From NCBI RefSeq assembly GCF_014489475.1, contig NZ_CP060820.1:2806001-2870000 (forward strand): DNA of 64,000 nucleotides. Direction: 5' to 3'. Positions 13,165-38,613 of the stretch are shown here, piece after piece. Made by a program: the position numbers and the translations under genes. Origin of the DNA: Lysobacter terrestris. GTDB taxonomy: Bacteria; Pseudomonadota; Gammaproteobacteria; Xanthomonadales; Xanthomonadaceae. How positions within the stretch are numbered: position 1 is the stretch's first letter; each line of letters opens with the position of its first letter. The notes beneath the pieces were generated by a model that saw nothing but the letters and a program-made list of their open reading frames with translations, was not told the origin of the DNA and ran no database searches.

Positions 13165-13347
13165 GGCCATCAAAACGGGGCTTGTGGGGTGTCGGCGCGC
13201 CCGAGACGGGCTTCGGTGAAAAGAGTTGAGGGCCCGGCGGCCGATTCCGGAAGGCGCCTCCGCCTGCCTCCGCCGCATTCCCATGGCGGGACTGAATGCG
13301 GGGTTCGGCCTCGTCCGGACAGGCGGCGGCTGCGTGCGCGTGGCACC

Positions 13348-14118
13348 ATGTCACGCATGAACGGGGCCCCCGTACTCGACCTGGCAACCCTCCGGAGCGG
13401 CTGCTCGCACTGTTCGCTGCAGCAGTTGTGCCTGCCGGCCGGCATCAGCCCGGATGAACTGCAACGGCTGGACGAGATCGTGCGTCGCCGTCGCCCCATC
13501 GAGCGCGGCGAACGGCTGTACCGCGCCGGCGATCCGCTGGCCGCGGTGTTCGTGGCCCGCGACGGCGCGTTCAAGACGGTGAGCATCAGCGAGGAAGGCG
13601 AGGAGCAGGTGATCGGCTTCCACCTGCCCGGCGAACTGATCGGGCTCGATGCCCTGGGCGCGGGCAGCCATCGCTGCGAGGCCATCGCGTTGACCGAGGC
13701 GAACGTCTGCGAGGTGCCGTTCGAGCAACTGGCCGTGGTTGCCGCGCAACTGCCGTCGCTGCAGCAGCAGCTGCTGCGCGTGATCGGGCAGAGCGTGGGC
13801 CGCGACCAGGACCACCTGGGCATCCTGGTGCGACGGCAGGCGGGCGAGCGCATCGCGCTGTTCCTGCACGGCCTGTCCGAGCGTTACCGCAACATCGGTC
13901 AGCCGGCGACGCAGTTCAAGCTGCCGATGAGCCGCGAGGACATCGCGCGCTACCTCGGACTGGCACTGGAAACGGTGAGCCGCGGCTTCACCCGTTTGCA
14001 GGAAGACGGCGTGATCGACGTCGTCGGCCGCCGCATCGACATCCTCAAGCCGGCCGAACTCAACCGCCTCGCGCACAGCGCCGAACACGACGAACCCAAG
14101 CGCCGCGGCCGCGCCTGA
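13348..14118 (+). CDS. fnr: FNR-family oxygen-sensing transcription regulator (paralog 1)
   Basis: The 256-residue protein has all FNR hallmarks. Three N-terminal Cys (Cys19, Cys22, Cys28 in CSHCSLQQLC) and an internal Cys121 (NVCEVPFE) are the four ligands of an oxygen-labile [4Fe-4S] cluster. A cyclic-nucleotide-type beta roll follows, then a helix-turn-helix with recognition helix LALETVSRGFTRLQEDG, whose E-x-x-S-R pattern reads TTGAT. It should be cytoplasmic, dimeric and active without oxygen. It converges with the cbb3 operon and lies close to many matching boxes. A second ATG three codons downstream is also possible. A paralog with the same Cys set is at 36398-37162. Confidence 0.92.
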   Translation: MSRMNGAPVLDLATLRSGCSHCSLQQLCLPAGISPDELQRLDEIVRRRRPIERGERLYRAGDPLAAVFVARDGAFKTVSISEEGEEQVIGFHLPGELIGLDALGAGSHRCEAIALTEANVCEVPFEQLAVVAAQLPSLQQQLLRVIGQSVGRDQDHLGILVRRQAGERIALFLHGLSERYRNIGQPATQFKLPMSREDIARYLGLALETVSRGFTRLQEDGVIDVVGRRIDILKPAELNRLAHSAEHDEPKRRGRA

Positions 14119-27999: not shown

Positions 28000-28976
28000 C
28001 GAGCGCTCCTGGCGCAGCGGAATCCGAGGTTGGCGGTGGCGTCGGCGCCTTCCAGCGAGGACAGCATCGCCACGCGCATCAGCACCGCGTAGTTCTCGCG
28101 GTCCTGCATCGAGAGCGCGCCGGCGCCGCAGAACTTCATACGGTCGGGATCGCCCTGGTCGCGGTTGTCGCCCGATACCAGCAGCGAGGAATAGTCGTCG
28201 GTCCATTCCCAGACCAGGCCATGCAGGTCCTGCACGCCCCAGGCATTGGCGGCCTGCAGCCCGGCGCGTGGCAGCGCTTCGTTGGAAGGGCGTGCGTACC
28301 AGGCGAGGATGCGTTCGCGCCATGCGGGGTCCTTGCGCGCGTCCTTGCGGGTTTCGTCGGCGGCCGCGGCGTATTCCCATTCCGACCAGGTCGGCAGCCG
28401 TGCATCGATCGATTCGCAGTAGGCGTTCGCGGCGAACCAGCTCACCCACACCACCGGCTGCTGCGGCAGTGCCTGCGGGCCGAGGGCGGTGGGCGACGCC
28501 CAGTGCGACAGGTAGCGCGGTTCGGCCAGCACGCCGGCGACGCGGTCGCGCTGCCATTGCGGATGCGCGCGTACGAAGGCGAGGAAGTCCGCATTCGTGA
28601 CCGGCTTGCGCATCAGTGCGAACGGCGCCACGCGCACGCCGGTCTTCGCGTCCTCGTACTGCAACGCGGATACGAAAGTGCCGCCCGGCAGACCGACGTA
28701 ACGCGGCCCCGCATCGCCGGCGAGGCCGGCGAGCGGGAGCGCGAGCAGCAGGGCGGCGAATACTTTGCGGAGCTGGCGTAGCCCGGGTAAGCGGAGCGCA
28801 CCGCGCCGCGACGCGCTTCGTTCCGTCGCGCGGTCGAACGCGCCGCCGCGCGCTGCAAAAGGAGGCGTGCGGGGTTCGATTTTGTGTCCCGATGCGGACC
28901 CGGGTGCGGCCTTCGGCCTTACCCGGGCTACGGTGGTGGTGGCAGGGCGCATGGCGGATTCCAGCGTTCCGTTCAA
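27996..28976 (-). CDS. nirV: NirV-like formylglycine-generating-enzyme-family protein with repeat-derived N-terminus
   Basis: From about residue 70 this is a standard exported FGE/SUMF-type protein: hydrophobic [17 protein letters not shown], then [37 protein letters not shown] and NLGFRCAR. Such proteins next to nirK are called NirV and have no settled function. The first ~66 residues (from [11 protein letters not shown]) are Arg/Pro-rich and encoded largely by the inverted-repeat element at 28778-28931. The start overlaps the nirK stop by ATGA, so the long form is probably translated. The signal-like helix is then buried and export may be impaired. No start codon lies between the element and that helix. 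Confidence 0.75.
28778..28931. repeat. Palindromic element B, copy 1, inside the nirV-like reading frame
   Basis: Terminal inverted repeats GTAGCCCGGGTAAGCGGAGC and GGCCTTACCCGGGCTAC bound about 154 bp that remain open in the coding frame. The same ends bound a shorter copy at 36293-36390. No transposase is present, so it behaves like a small non-autonomous or REP-type element. Confidence 0.8.
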
Positions 28977-33485: not shown

Positions 33486-33625
33486 CCCCTCACCCTGCGT
33501 CGCTGCCGCGACGCTGTCCCTCTCCCTCTCCCCGCAAGCGGGGAGAGGGGGCTTCCCCCTTCTCGCGCGTGTTTTCTCCTTCTCCCCGCGCGCGGGGAGA
33601 AGGTGCCCGAAGGGCGGATGAGGGG
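33486..33625. repeat. Dispersed repeat family A, copy 2, just downstream of norB
   Basis: It begins CCCCTCACCCTGCGTCGCTG and ends GGTGCCCGAAGGGCGGATGA before GGGG. Inside are two CTCCCCGC(A)AGCGGGGAGA-type hairpins. It is in direct orientation with the copy at 36074-36186, so norB is flanked by direct repeats. Confidence 0.8.
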
Positions 33626-33633
33626 GCTTTTGA

Positions 33634-35973
33634 TCAGTGCTCGGATTCACCCGCACCGGCTGCCACCGGCAACCGCCTGGGCGCCACCCACAGGCGCAGC
33701 ACGAACCAGCACAACGCCAGCGCACCGACGCTGAACACGGTGTCGCCCGGCACGCGCATCCATACCAGCAGGTCGACGATCGGCTTCTGCATGAACTCCG
33801 CCGAGCGCGCGTAGGCGTAGCCGTGCTCGATCGCCGCCAGCAGTTGCATCGTGCCCAGGGGCAGCAGGGTGAACACCGCCATCATTCCCAGGCCGATGTT
33901 GAAGCTCCAGAACGCCACCTTCAGTGCCTTGGTGTCCCACGCCATCTGGCCGCGCAGCCCGCGCAGGCAGAACAGCACCAGCGCGATGCCGAGCATGCCG
34001 TACACGCCGAACAACGCGGTGTGGCCGTGCAGCGGGGTCAGGTTGAGGCCCTGCATGTAGTACAGCGACAGCGGCGGATTGATCAGGAAGCCGAACAGGC
34101 CCGCGCCCACCAGGTTCCAGAACGAAACCGCGATGAAGAACAGGATCGGCCAGCGGTAGCGCGCCATCCACGGCGTCGCCTTGCCGAGCTTGTAGGTGTG
34201 GTAGCCCTCGAAGCCGATGTAGGCCAGCGGCACCACTTCCAGCGCGGAGAAGCTCGCGCCCAGCGCCACCACCGCGGTCGGCGTGCCGACGAAGTACAGG
34301 TGGTGCAGGGTGCCGAGCACGCCGCCGGCCATGAACACGATGGTGGCGAACAGCACCGCCGTCGTCGCGGTCTTCGTGTTGACCAGGCCGAGCTTGACGA
34401 AGATCAGCGACATCACCGCGGCGGCGAAGACCTCGAAGAAGCCTTCCACCCACAGGTGCACCAGCCACCAGCGCCAGTACTCGACCTCGGAAATGTGCGT
34501 GTGCTCGCCCCACATCAGCGCCGCGGCGAAGAACAGGCCGATGCACACGGTGGAGAGGAACAGCAGGCCGACAATGGCTCTTGTGTCGTTTGCCGCCTTG
34601 GTGTCGCTGGCAGGACCGCGCAGCACCGGCCACAACGCACGGCCGACCAGGGTCAGCCACAGCAGCAGGCCGACGAAGAGGAACCATTGCCAGAAGCGGC
34701 CCATGTCCGCGTATTCCCAGCCCTGGTGGCCGAACCAGAAGTTCAGGTCGAGGCCGAGCTTCTGCATCACCGCCAGCCACTGGCCCGCGAACGAGCCGAC
34801 CACGATCACCAGCAGGCACGCCCAGAGGAAATTGACACCCAGGCGCTGGAACTTCGGCTCGTGCCCGCTCAGTGCCGGCGCGATGTACAGGCCGGTGCCG
34901 AGCCATGCAACGGCGATCCACAGCACCGCCAACTGCGTGTGCCAGGTGCGGGTGATCGAGTAGGGCAGGATGTTGGAGAGGTTGAAGCCGTAGGCGACCT
35001 GGCCTTCGACCTGGTAGTGCGCGGTCATCGCGCCCAGCAGGATCTGCACCAGGAACAGCGCCAGCACGACCCAGAAGTACTTCGCGGTGGCGCGCATCGA
35101 CGGGGTGATGCGCAACGTGGCGAGCGGATCGCTGGCCGGCAGCTTCATCGGCGCGTCGTCGTGGGTGCGCGCGTGGTGCCAGCCGAGCAGGGCGATGCCC
35201 GCGATCAGGAACAGCACGCTGAAGGCCGACCACAGCCACAGCGGCGCGGCCGGGCGGTTGCCGACCAGCGGCTCGCTCGGCCAGTTGTTGGTGTAGGTGA
35301 CCTGCTGGTCGACCACGTCGGCCTGCGTCGGCACCATCGCGTCGCCCGGCTCGCGCGGGCGTTCGGTGGTCGCGGCCCAGGCCGTCCACCAGAAGAACGC
35401 GGTCAGCGCGCGGCGATGCCCGGCATCGGGCACCGTGTCGTTCTTCATCGCGTAGGCCTCGCGCAGCGCCTGCGTCGCGGGGTCGTTGCCGAACAGGCTC
35501 TCGTAGTGCGCGGCGACATTCGACAGTGCGACGACGCGATCGTCGCTGAGGGTGATCGTGCCGGTCGCGGCGTCGTAGGTGTTCCGGCGCATCATCTCCT
35601 GCAGGCGACCCTGCAGCGCCGCCTTGCGCTCGGCCGGCAGCTGCGCGTACGTCGCCGTCGCATCGTCGGCGCGCGCCCACAGGTCGAGTACGCCGGTGGC
35701 TTCGCGGTGCAGCCAGTCCGCGCTCCAGTCGGGTGCGACATAGGCGCCGTGCCCCCAGATGGAGCCCAGCTGCATGCCGCCCATCGACTGCCACACCTGG
35801 CGGCCGCGTTCGATGTCGGCCTTGGTGTAGACCACCTGGCCGCTCTCGCTCACCACGCATTCGGGCACCGGCGGCGCGGCGCGGAAGATCTCCGTCCCGG
35901 CCCACAGCAGCACGCCGAACGAGACGATGAGCAGGGTCGCAAGCCCCAGCCACAACTTCCTCGTATTGCTCAT
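33634..35973 (-). CDS. norB: Quinol-dependent nitric oxide reductase (qNor)
   Basis: qNor reduces NO to N2O at a haem b3-FeB centre using quinol. The 779-residue length shows the fused single-subunit form: an N-terminal helix, a periplasmic cytochrome c-like domain without a CxxCH motif (QVWQSMGGMQLGSIWGHGAY), then 12+ membrane helices. Metal-site marks are ITRTWHTQLAVLW, WGEHTHISEVEYWRWWLVHLW split around EVEYW, GTLHHLYFVGTP and LTPLHGHTALFGVYG. No norC is needed. The ATG follows GGGAGAA. It has its own FNR-type promoter and is the only gene between two direct repeats. Confidence 0.95.
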   Translation of the reverse strand: MSNTRKLWLGLATLLIVSFGVLLWAGTEIFRAAPPVPECVVSESGQVVYTKADIERGRQVWQSMGGMQLGSIWGHGAYVAPDWSADWLHREATGVLDLWARADDATATYAQLPAERKAALQGRLQEMMRRNTYDAATGTITLSDDRVVALSNVAAHYESLFGNDPATQALREAYAMKNDTVPDAGHRRALTAFFWWTAWAATTERPREPGDAMVPTQADVVDQQVTYTNNWPSEPLVGNRPAAPLWLWSAFSVLFLIAGIALLGWHHARTHDDAPMKLPASDPLATLRITPSMRATAKYFWVVLALFLVQILLGAMTAHYQVEGQVAYGFNLSNILPYSITRTWHTQLAVLWIAVAWLGTGLYIAPALSGHEPKFQRLGVNFLWACLLVIVVGSFAGQWLAVMQKLGLDLNFWFGHQGWEYADMGRFWQWFLFVGLLLWLTLVGRALWPVLRGPASDTKAANDTRAIVGLLFLSTVCIGLFFAAALMWGEHTHISEVEYWRWWLVHLWVEGFFEVFAAAVMSLIFVKLGLVNTKTATTAVLFATIVFMAGGVLGTLHHLYFVGTPTAVVALGASFSALEVVPLAYIGFEGYHTYKLGKATPWMARYRWPILFFIAVSFWNLVGAGLFGFLINPPLSLYYMQGLNLTPLHGHTALFGVYGMLGIALVLFCLRGLRGQMAWDTKALKVAFWSFNIGLGMMAVFTLLPLGTMQLLAAIEHGYAYARSAEFMQKPIVDLLVWMRVPGDTVFSVGALALCWFVLRLWVAPRRLPVAAGAGESEH

Positions 35974-36073: not shown

Positions 36074-36186
36074 CCCCTCGCCCTGCGCCGCTATCGCGAC
36101 GCTGTCCCTCTCCCCGCAAGCGGGGCGAGGGAGGATTTCCTTCTCCCCGCTTGCGGGGAGAAGGTGCCCGCAGGGCAGATGAGGGG
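36074..36186. repeat. Dispersed repeat family A, copy 3, just upstream of norB
   Basis: It begins CCCCTCGCCCTGCGCCGCTA and ends GGTGCCCGCAGGGCAGATGA before GGGG; it shares order and orientation with copy 2, including GCGACGCTGTCCCTCTCC and the CCTTCTCCCCG/CGGGGAGAAGG hairpin. Confidence 0.8.
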
Positions 36187-36207: not shown

Positions 36208-36291
36208 TCAATCCCGCAACACCGGCCCCGCCAGCTCGTCGAGCGGTTCGCGCTGCACGATCTCCAGCTCGCGCCGGTCGACGCGCAGCCC
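36208..36291 (-). pseudogene. Remnant of the 3' end of a second, diverged fnr gene
   Basis: Reading the minus strand gives 27 codons, LRVDRRELEIVQREPLDELA then GPVLRD and TGA. The intact fnr next door ends LRVDRRELELVGREALDTLA then APILRD. The two tails align without gaps and differ at about seven positions, so this is a homologous but not identical fnr end. It has no upstream body; it stops at palindromic element B. It looks like the leftover of a replaced or duplicated gene. Confidence 0.82.
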
Positions 36292-36292
36292 C

Positions 36293-36390
36293 GTAGCCCG
36301 GGTAAGCGCAGCGCACCCGGGGGGCGCGACGCGCGACGAAGTCGATGGCCGGCAGTTCACCCGGGTGCGCCTTCGGCTTACCCGGGCTAC
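36293..36390. repeat. Palindromic element B, copy 2, between fnr remnant and intact fnr
   Basis: GTAGCCCGGGTAAGCGCAGC at the left and GCCTTCGGCTTACCCGGGCTAC (last 14 bases CTTACCCGGGCTAC) at the right bound 98 bp. It ends 7 bp before the intact fnr stop codon. Compare 28778-28931. Confidence 0.82.
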
Positions 36391-36397
36391 GTGGCGG

Positions 36398-37162
36398 CTA
36401 GTCGCGAAGGATCGGCGCCGCCAGCGTGTCGAGCGCTTCGCGGCCGACGAGTTCGAGCTCGCGCCGGTCCACGCGCAGCAGGCCCTCTTCCTGGAACCGC
36501 CGCAGCACGCGGCTCACCGTTTCCGGCGCCAGGCGCAGGTAGTTGGCGATGTCCGTGCGCGCCATCGTCAACTGGAAGCGGTTGGGCGAAAACCCGCGCG
36601 CGGCCAGGCGCCGCGACAGGCCGACCAGGAATGCCGCCATGCGCTGGTCGGCCGACCAGTCGCCGGCGAGCAGCGCCGCCCGGCCGATGTCGCGGCTGAG
36701 CAGGCGGAACAGCTGCCGCTGCAGTCCCGGCAGCCGCGTCGCCAGCACCGCGATCTTAGGGAACGAGAAACGGCACAGCATCACCGTGTCCAGCGCGATG
36801 GCGTTGCACGGGTAGTGGTCGCCATCGATCGCGTTGAGGCCGATGACCTCGCCGGGCAGGTGGAAGCCGAGCACGTGTTCGCGTCCGTCGCGGTCGATGA
36901 CGTAGGTCTTCACCGTGCCCGCGCGCACCGCGGCGATGGCTTCGAACGGATCGCCTTCGCGGAAGATGTGTTCGCCGGCGTGGAACGGGCCGACGTGCTC
37001 GACCAGCACGTGCAGGTCCATCAGCGCGCGCTTGTCCATGCCCTCGTCGAGGCAGGCCTGCGAAAAGGCGCAGGTCGAGCAGAAGCGCAGGAGGTCGCCG
37101 TCGTCCGCGAGCGTGCGCGCGTCGTTGCGCGGGAACGTCGCCTGGCTCACGCAGGAATCCAT
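36398..37162 (-). CDS. fnr: FNR/Anr-family regulator (paralog 2), linked to hemN
   Basis: The 254-residue protein has Cys28, Cys31 and Cys37 (FCSTCAFSQAC) plus Cys130 (VMLCRFSF), the full ligand set for an oxygen-sensing [4Fe-4S] cluster. A beta-roll with GFHLPGEVIGLNA and a helix-turn-helix with LAPETVSRVLRRFQEEG follow. It starts 7 bp after the hemN stop, the hemN-anr arrangement known from pseudomonads. It would therefore be controlled by the FNR-type promoter of hemN, giving autoregulation. Its 3' end abuts palindromic element B, and a diverged copy of the tail lies on the other side. Confidence 0.92.
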   Translation of the reverse strand: MDSCVSQATFPRNDARTLADDGDLLRFCSTCAFSQACLDEGMDKRALMDLHVLVEHVGPFHAGEHIFREGDPFEAIAAVRAGTVKTYVIDRDGREHVLGFHLPGEVIGLNAIDGDHYPCNAIALDTVMLCRFSFPKIAVLATRLPGLQRQLFRLLSRDIGRAALLAGDWSADQRMAAFLVGLSRRLAARGFSPNRFQLTMARTDIANYLRLAPETVSRVLRRFQEEGLLRVDRRELELVGREALDTLAAPILRD

Positions 37163-37169
37163 GCGACGC

Positions 37170-38564
37170 TCAGATCGCGCGCGAGAAGCGTGGCGTGGCC
37201 ACGGTGGCAGGCTGGTCGAGGTAGCGGTCGAAGCACATCGCGATGTTACGCAACAGCAGGCGGCCGCGCGACGTGACGCGGATGCACTCGCGTTCCAGCC
37301 GCACCAGCCCGTCCTGCACCAGCGGCTGCAAGCGCACGAGGGCTTCGGCGAAGTACTGGTCGAAAGTGATGGCGTAGCGCCGCTCCAGCGCGCGGATCGG
37401 TACTTCGCCCTGGCACATCAGGGCCTGGATCAGGTCGGCGCGGAGCTGGTCGTCCTCGTCCAGGCGCATGCCGCGGAACACCGGCAGCCGGCCTTCGTCG
37501 AGCGCCAGCTGCCAGCTCGGCAGGTCGCGCGGGTTCTGGCTGAAGCTGTCGCCGATGTGGCTGATCGCGCTCACGCCCAGGCCGACCAGGTCGCTGTCGG
37601 CGTGCGTGGTGTAACCCATGAAATTGCGGTGCAGGCCGCCGCGCGCCTGCGCGATGGCGAGGTCGTCGTCGGGCAGCGCGAAGTGGTCCATGCCGATGTA
37701 GACGTAGCCCGCGGCGGTGAGCCGGGCGATCGCCAGCTGCAGCAGGGCCAGCTTGGTTTCCGCGTCCGGCAGGTCGGCCGCGTCGATCTGCCGCTGCGGC
37801 TTGAACAGCTGCGGCAGGTGCGCGTAGCTGTAGACGGCGAAGCGGTCGGGGCGCATCGCGGTGACGAGCTCGAGCGTCTTCGCGAAGCCGTCGAGGCTCT
37901 GCTTGGGCAGGCCGTAGATCAGGTCGACGTTGACCGAACGGAAGCCATGCGCGCGGCAGGCGTCGACCACGGCGCGGGTTTCCTCCACGCTCTGCACCCG
38001 GTTGACGGCCACCTGCACCGCGGGATCGAAATCCTGCACGCCGAAGCTGGCGCGGTTGAAGCCGATGTCGGCGAGTTGGGCGATGTCCTGCGGCGTGACG
38101 AAGCGCGGGTCCAGTTCGATCGAGATGTCGCGCTCGCCCGATCCGGAAAAATGGAAGTGGCTGCGCAAGGTGTCCACGACTTCGCGCAGTTGTTCCGGCG
38201 TGAGGAAATTGGGCGTGCCGCCGCCGAAATGCAGCTGGATGACCTCGCGGTCGCGGTCGAACAACTGCGCGGTCAGCGCGATCTCGCGGTACAGGCGCGC
38301 CAGGTAGGCCTCGCCGCGGGCCTTGTCGCGGGTGATGATGCGGTTACAGCCGCAGTAGAAGCACGGGCTGGCGCAGAAGGGCACGTGCACGTACAGCGAC
38401 AACCGCCGCGGGATGGGATCGCCGTTGCTGGCCGTCGCCGCATCGCGCAGCTGCGCCTCGCCGAAGCCGGCGTGGAATTGCGGCGCGGTGGGATACGAGG
38501 TGTAGCGCGGTCCGGGCCGGTCGTAGCGGCGCAGCAGGTCGGGATCGAAGGCCATGGTCTCCAT
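37170..38564 (-). CDS. hemN: Oxygen-independent coproporphyrinogen III dehydrogenase HemN
   Basis: HemN is a radical-SAM enzyme that makes protoporphyrinogen IX without oxygen. The protein has GPRYTSYPTA, the cluster motif CASPCFYCGC (C-x3-C-x2-C), LHFGGGTPNF and a C-terminal HemN domain. Possible starts are GTG 38573, ATG 38564 and ATG 38555. The FNR box centre at 38606.5 predicts transcription from about 38565 and puts the GTG inside the -10. I therefore take ATG 38564 (464 residues), which would be nearly leaderless; 38555 is the next choice. fnr paralog 2 follows in the same operon. Confidence 0.93.
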   Translation of the reverse strand: METMAFDPDLLRRYDRPGPRYTSYPTAPQFHAGFGEAQLRDAATASNGDPIPRRLSLYVHVPFCASPCFYCGCNRIITRDKARGEAYLARLYREIALTAQLFDRDREVIQLHFGGGTPNFLTPEQLREVVDTLRSHFHFSGSGERDISIELDPRFVTPQDIAQLADIGFNRASFGVQDFDPAVQVAVNRVQSVEETRAVVDACRAHGFRSVNVDLIYGLPKQSLDGFAKTLELVTAMRPDRFAVYSYAHLPQLFKPQRQIDAADLPDAETKLALLQLAIARLTAAGYVYIGMDHFALPDDDLAIAQARGGLHRNFMGYTTHADSDLVGLGVSAISHIGDSFSQNPRDLPSWQLALDEGRLPVFRGMRLDEDDQLRADLIQALMCQGEVPIRALERRYAITFDQYFAEALVRLQPLVQDGLVRLERECIRVTSRGRLLLRNIAMCFDRYLDQPATVATPRFSRAI

Positions 38565-38571
38565 GGCCTGC

Positions 38572-38613
38572 ACGTTAGGGACCCGGCGGCGGCGTTGCCT
38601 TGATCGAGGTCAA
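38572..38613 (-). promoter_or_regulatory. FNR-type promoter of hemN-fnr
   Basis: TTGATCGAGGTCAA (38600-38613) is centred 29.5 bp from TAACGT (38572-38577). The predicted start coincides with the second possible start codon of hemN. Confidence 0.78.

Follow-up and report, generated by a model that had tools for sequence, protein, structure and literature searches.

In the T6SS effector-immunity modules of Vibrio, displacement by homology-facilitated illegitimate recombination has been proposed, and the parts of that report available to us mention orphaned 3′ regions of Rhs (PMC5361080). At icd of E. coli the site-specific prophage e14 gives the gene a new 3′ end, whilst the former end is left behind as a 3′ fragment, as the accessible portions of PMC6379469 describe. 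GTAG-headed repeats and REPINs are the subject of PMC3733652 and PMC3116915; as far as excerpts of these papers go, GTAG-type REPINs consist of two inverted GTAG-headed palindromes and a spacer, are about 100 bp long, occur in many copies and form families that go with a RAYT.

The fnr locus of the window (i.e., the whole stretch of 64,000 nucleotides analysed here) resembles each of these in part. As in the Vibrio scheme, so far as the available text of PMC5361080 sets it out, there would be an upstream homologous anchor and a non-homologous downstream junction, and the old 3′ end behind a divergent gene, which such displacement requires, is what the order of the two tails at fnr provides. 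However, fnr is a single regulator gene and not a diversifying toxin locus, a REPIN sits at its seam, and import is something we infer. Like icd with e14, fnr would have gained a new 3′ end with the old one left as a 3′ fragment; unlike that case, as the same portions of PMC6379469 present it, the seam holds only a 98-bp REPIN, and an integrase-bearing insert between the new and old 3′ ends is absent, the REPIN and a few bases being all that lies there. The element itself agrees with the GTAG-type REPINs in build, length and copy number, but differs from the families with a RAYT, as excerpted from PMC3733652 and PMC3116915, in that the genome carrying it gave no match to PF01797.

On the minus strand, hemN is followed by fnr, the 98-bp palindromic element, a second fnr 3′ end, an intergenic stretch, norB and an NnrS gene (Table 1), the gene names at the locus resting on profile matches. 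The fnr product has cNMP_binding, HTH_Crp_2 and Crp domain matches and reaches 196.4 bits against NCBIfam NF008365 (Fnr) in a profile search, below the cut-off of 228. Both norB and NnrS have no NCBIfam match, yet lie above the Pfam cut-offs, and in the profile search covering norB three of the eight query frames were without any match. The hemN-fnr side, with its 7-bp spacing, carries no visible scar. In front of norB stands a candidate FNR-box-like site, picked out by its sequence pattern. Between remnant and norB, at 36100-36164, there is a further intergenic palindromic repeat (CTTCTCCCCGC...GCGGGGAGAAGG), and similar units occur at 33579 and 26621 of the window.

Table 1. Features of the fnr locus, in window coordinates.
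Feature	Positions	Strand	Remarks
norB (nitric oxide reductase, 779 aa + stop)	33634-35973	-	NorB_cytochrome_c-like, COX1
Candidate FNR-box-like site TTGATACAAATCAA	36027-36040		In front of norB, far side of remnant
Orphan fnr 3′ end (remnant), 26 codons + TGA stop	36208-36288	-	Second, diverged Fnr C-terminus; stop 36208-36210
Seam, 4 bases	36289-36292		REPIN end to first homologous codon of remnant
REPIN (two inverted GTAG-headed REP arms + spacer, 98 bp)	36293-36390		Starts 7 bp after fnr stop
fnr, intact (Fnr/Crp-family regulator, 254 aa)	36398-37162	-	Stop TAG 36398-36400
hemN	37170-38573	-	TIGR00538, 577.8 bits (cut-off 324.95); ends 7 bp upstream of fnr start

The two fnr tails, at 36212-36289 and 36402-36479, are direct repeats that are 78% alike at a spacing of 190, and the 200-base flanks compared across the element reach a similarity score of 44, where the best of 100 shuffles gave 16. 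They differ at 18 of 78 bases (60 alike) and have 20 of 26 residues in common by codon (RVDRRELELVGREALDTLAAPILRD versus RVDRRELEIVQREPLDELAGPVLRD, with an L before each), and the similarity persists when codons are aligned, its loss there being an outcome that the first-pass annotation had said would refute its reading. That annotation had assigned the second C-terminus to 27 codons at 36208-36291; a second, different Fnr C-terminus is indeed there, but its homology covers 26 codons and the stop, from the Leu codon at 36286-36288. The 98-bp length and the inverted ends that it gave for the element between the tails agree with ours, as do the stop codons. The remnant has no stop or frameshift ahead of its own TGA and is out of frame with fnr (offset 190), which rules out readthrough from fnr into it. 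Along fnr, variation is greatest in the tail, where the intact gene and the remnant have diverged about as far from each other as either has from the tails of relatives (0.6 to 0.8 alike).

The element between them is a REPIN of a multicopy GTAG-class family. Its ends are contained in a 29-nt inverted repeat with 86% complementary arms; GTAG stands at both outer ends (GTAG...CTAC), i.e., the head is outermost on each arm, and each GTAG is followed by a CCCGGGTAAGC...GCACCCGGG palindrome, the two palindromes being inverted with a spacer. Taken as RNA, positions 36289-36400 fold much better than shuffles (z = -5.25). The REP core motif has 20 + 20 matches in the genome, against 0 for a reversed-pattern control, and a partner arm was recognised by regular expression at 17 of the 26 other REP elements examined. 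For the flank-repeat comparison 30 of the 40 motif matches were used; as four of these were second arms, they represent 26 elements, and two of the other 10 matches are the focal arms. Flanking repeats like those at fnr were absent from all 26, where flank similarity was never more than 1 above the best shuffle (17 vs 16 at L213), so flank duplication as a habit of this family is rejected. The family has a further inverted pair of REP cores in the window, at 28778-28931, with more distance between them than in the element at fnr.

Seventeen of the 60 genomes searched, this one included, have the exact core GTAGCCCGGGTAAGC, with two copies in the same-genus genome G002 and none in G001. PF01797 (Y1 transposase, RAYT superfamily) was matched in 42 of the 60, G001 and G002 among them, and had no match in the genome under study, this being a single Pfam model that a diverged RAYT could escape. 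Since that match is missing, the REP family may be orphaned in this genome, without a RAYT. The two genomes are thus differently equipped, with about 40 REP cores and no PF01797 match here and a PF01797 match with two cores in G002.

The remnant does not resemble a decaying sequence. Scored against an Fnr profile of 85 distinct relative tails (from the 101 of 102 with an ungapped tail), it is ordinary, 34 of the 85 scoring equal or lower, whilst 18 random changes put into the intact tail gave a score as high in none of 20,000 simulations, with a stop expected in 15% of the copies so made. It has 6 amino-acid changes where 11.0 are expected, as few as in 0.3% of the simulations. Starting from a functional tail, the chance of a score at the remnant's level is about 0.05 after five neutral changes and 0.003 after nine, and more than about six such changes since the functional state fit it poorly. 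Because its profile score is ordinary and drifted copies score worse, the remnant looks, as far as its sequence tells, like a once-functional Fnr tail and not like a degraded duplicate of the one next to it. Selection was probably still acting on both tails, each in a working gene of its own, when most of the 18 differences accumulated, and the orphaning was probably recent, unless the remnant is still selected for another reason. The first-pass annotation had left open whether fnr was replaced or duplicated; local duplication followed by decay is strongly disfavoured by these simulations, and replacement by a divergent allele is the part that stands as the best-supported reading.

Relatives offer no parallel for the double tail. 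The survey comprised the window, 80 named relatives and two additional regions, 83 stretches in all, in which Lysobacter sp. M2-1 occurs twice (L040 and L186), the 82 relative stretches thus being 81 distinct loci. A second tail was found in none of the 82 by a whole-stretch scan requiring at least 12 of 23 residues, with the window's two tails as sole references, which a very different second tail could escape; the same arrangement in relatives back to the family root, by which the annotation would have been refuted, did not appear there, both tails occurring in the window alone. For the 80 named loci, a scan of 700 bases downstream of fnr matched 9 of 23 residues at best, with the intact tail, the remnant and the locus's own tail as references. 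None of the 82 stretches has a tandem fnr on the same strand, the second Fnr-family match in six of them being on the opposite strand, 38-62% identical and roughly 1.6 to 5 kb off. L010-L014, the nearest relatives read, have norB next after fnr and no second tail; norB was recovered from 71 of 81 stretches. Of the 80 loci, two have REP cores in the 600 bases that follow fnr, most clearly that of Lysobacter changpingensis (L118), where four REPINs follow fnr in tandem, the first 15 bp past the stop; this is a precedent for a REPIN directly after an fnr stop. The search for a donor in 395 family genomes gave, own tails aside, a best tail of 83% for the remnant and 81% for the intact gene, over most of the 85-base query. 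In G001, the nearest genome by rpoB, neither norB nor a close fnr was found, so norB and fnr were gained or lost within the genus of the window genome.

The placement of the two alleles rests on fnr trees of 85 rows, window and remnant included, from which identical rows and rows with shifted tails (L081, L087, L088, L095 and L096) were omitted. On the fixed fnr tree the remnant goes to Lysobacter sp. M2-1 (L040), of another genus, with a weight of 0.99; a place beside the fnr of the window itself is 8.8 log units worse and is not rejected (AU p = 0.087), and the AU test retains several other placements of this sequence of only 78 bases. An earlier AU comparison on quickly searched trees, which rejected none of three, was set aside as search noise, because the tree constrained to L040 scored below a free tree already containing that pair. 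The remnant is 0.82 alike to Lysobacter sp. M2-1, with which it shares 11 of the 18 differing bases, against 4 shared by the intact tail. The annotation had called the remnant the old tail; a stranded tail is present, but whether it is native is less plain, its best place being in another genus whilst grouping with the intact gene is retained. As for the match to the fnr of a sister species that it proposed to look for, the remnant does not match same-genus G002, which is 0.74 alike to it and 0.77 to the intact tail, with agreement at 8 and 9 of the 18 bases, respectively, and thus no discrimination. The intact tail goes best with L056/G099 (weight 0.64; pAU 0.313 with G002 and L040), and the intact fnr body on deep branches (weight 0.39; pAU 0.607 with G002 and L040).

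The neighbouring genes vary in their grouping: Lysobacter sp. M2-1 is the partner of hemN (local support 0.958) and L048 a weakly supported one of norB (0.708), whilst the rpoB tree, of one gene, puts the genome with G001 (100) and G002 (99). The rpoB sequence was obtained from 24 of 25 genomes; the row of G022, at 36% identity, resembles a wrong-frame extraction and is a mere long branch. Since the fnr body is nearer to other relatives (up to 88.8% identity) than to G002 (83.2%), despite the rpoB grouping with the latter, the locus does not, by these comparisons, follow rpoB, which makes an exchange at fnr plausible. Fisher tests gave values below 0.05 for body vs remnant with 7 of 12 comparison genomes and for intact tail vs remnant with 2 of 12, all uncorrected and non-independent. 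Neither block identities nor site counts against Lysobacter sp. M2-1 located an upstream breakpoint, because every relative is far away.

We take the locus, on balance and with some confidence, to be the fossil of a recombination in which a divergent fnr displaced the resident one, the distal junction falling at the REPIN and the old tail being stranded before norB; the annotation's junction at the element is thereby retained. Incoming DNA with a divergent allele would have replaced the resident fnr, in whole or in its 3′ part. Upstream, the exchange would have run through homologous hemN/fnr sequence without visible scar, hemN being the presumed anchor; downstream, the junction would lie at the outer end of the REPIN just past the fnr stop, so that the last 26 codons of the displaced gene were left before norB. 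A scar-free hemN-fnr side and a seam at the outer end of the REPIN would fit a one-step exchange, by homologous recombination at the former and illegitimate recombination at the latter. In an equally possible version in two steps, a REPIN would have interrupted the old fnr, and an incoming fnr with its own REPIN would then have recombined through the common repeat; the REPIN may thus have arrived before or after the exchange.

Two functional-looking tails would equally be left if tandem full-length fnr paralogs, imported or from an old duplication, had been split by a REPIN and most of the downstream copy then deleted; this we consider unlikely, as the same end state calls for an extra deletion ending at the REPIN, and tandem same-strand fnr occurs in none of the 82 relative stretches. 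A mobile element at the 3′ end of fnr that brought a replacement tail, displaced the old one and later shrank to a REPIN would reproduce the geometry of e14 at icd, where, in the portions of PMC6379469 consulted, the new 3′ end completes the gene and the old end lies beyond the insert, but a 98-bp REPIN and a few bases leave no room for an integrase between the tails, and we hold it to be quite improbable.

The direct repeat that closely flanks the element could suggest that insertion of the REPIN duplicated some 85 bp, as a target site or in tandem, and that one copy then drifted. This is very hard to sustain when not one of 20,000 drifted copies resembles the remnant, when the remnant resembles Lysobacter sp. 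M2-1 (0.82) more closely than it does the tail beside it (60 of 78 bases), and when the 26 other REP elements have no comparable flanking repeat. Least credible of all seems a switch in which recombination between the direct repeats would exchange two alternative, functional C-termini; a remnant free of stops and frameshifts would suit it, but the remnant is out of frame with fnr, the repeats are just 78% alike and no relative examined has a second tail.

Read as an allele displacement, the fnr tail is a well-preserved instance of a known process, to which the REPIN at the seam adds some interest; in the portions of the literature available on REP-bounded gene replacement and on fnr, denitrification and transfer in Lysobacter, no description of such an arrangement was found. 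The orphan tail would record, in legible form, the exchange of a regulator gene next to nitric oxide reductase; since part of the lost allele survives in it, sequences of close strains could settle the donor and the order of events. As a single case, it also raises the question of a role for REPINs in allele replacement. It is tempting, though decidedly doubtful, to see in REPINs a portable homology, matching copies of which after stop codons would let strongly diverged alleles recombine, such that REPIN-bounded swaps and orphan tails would recur across the family. As for fnr-like genes elsewhere in the window, there is a second Crp/Fnr-family regulator at 13342-14073 on the plus strand, about 40% identical to fnr.
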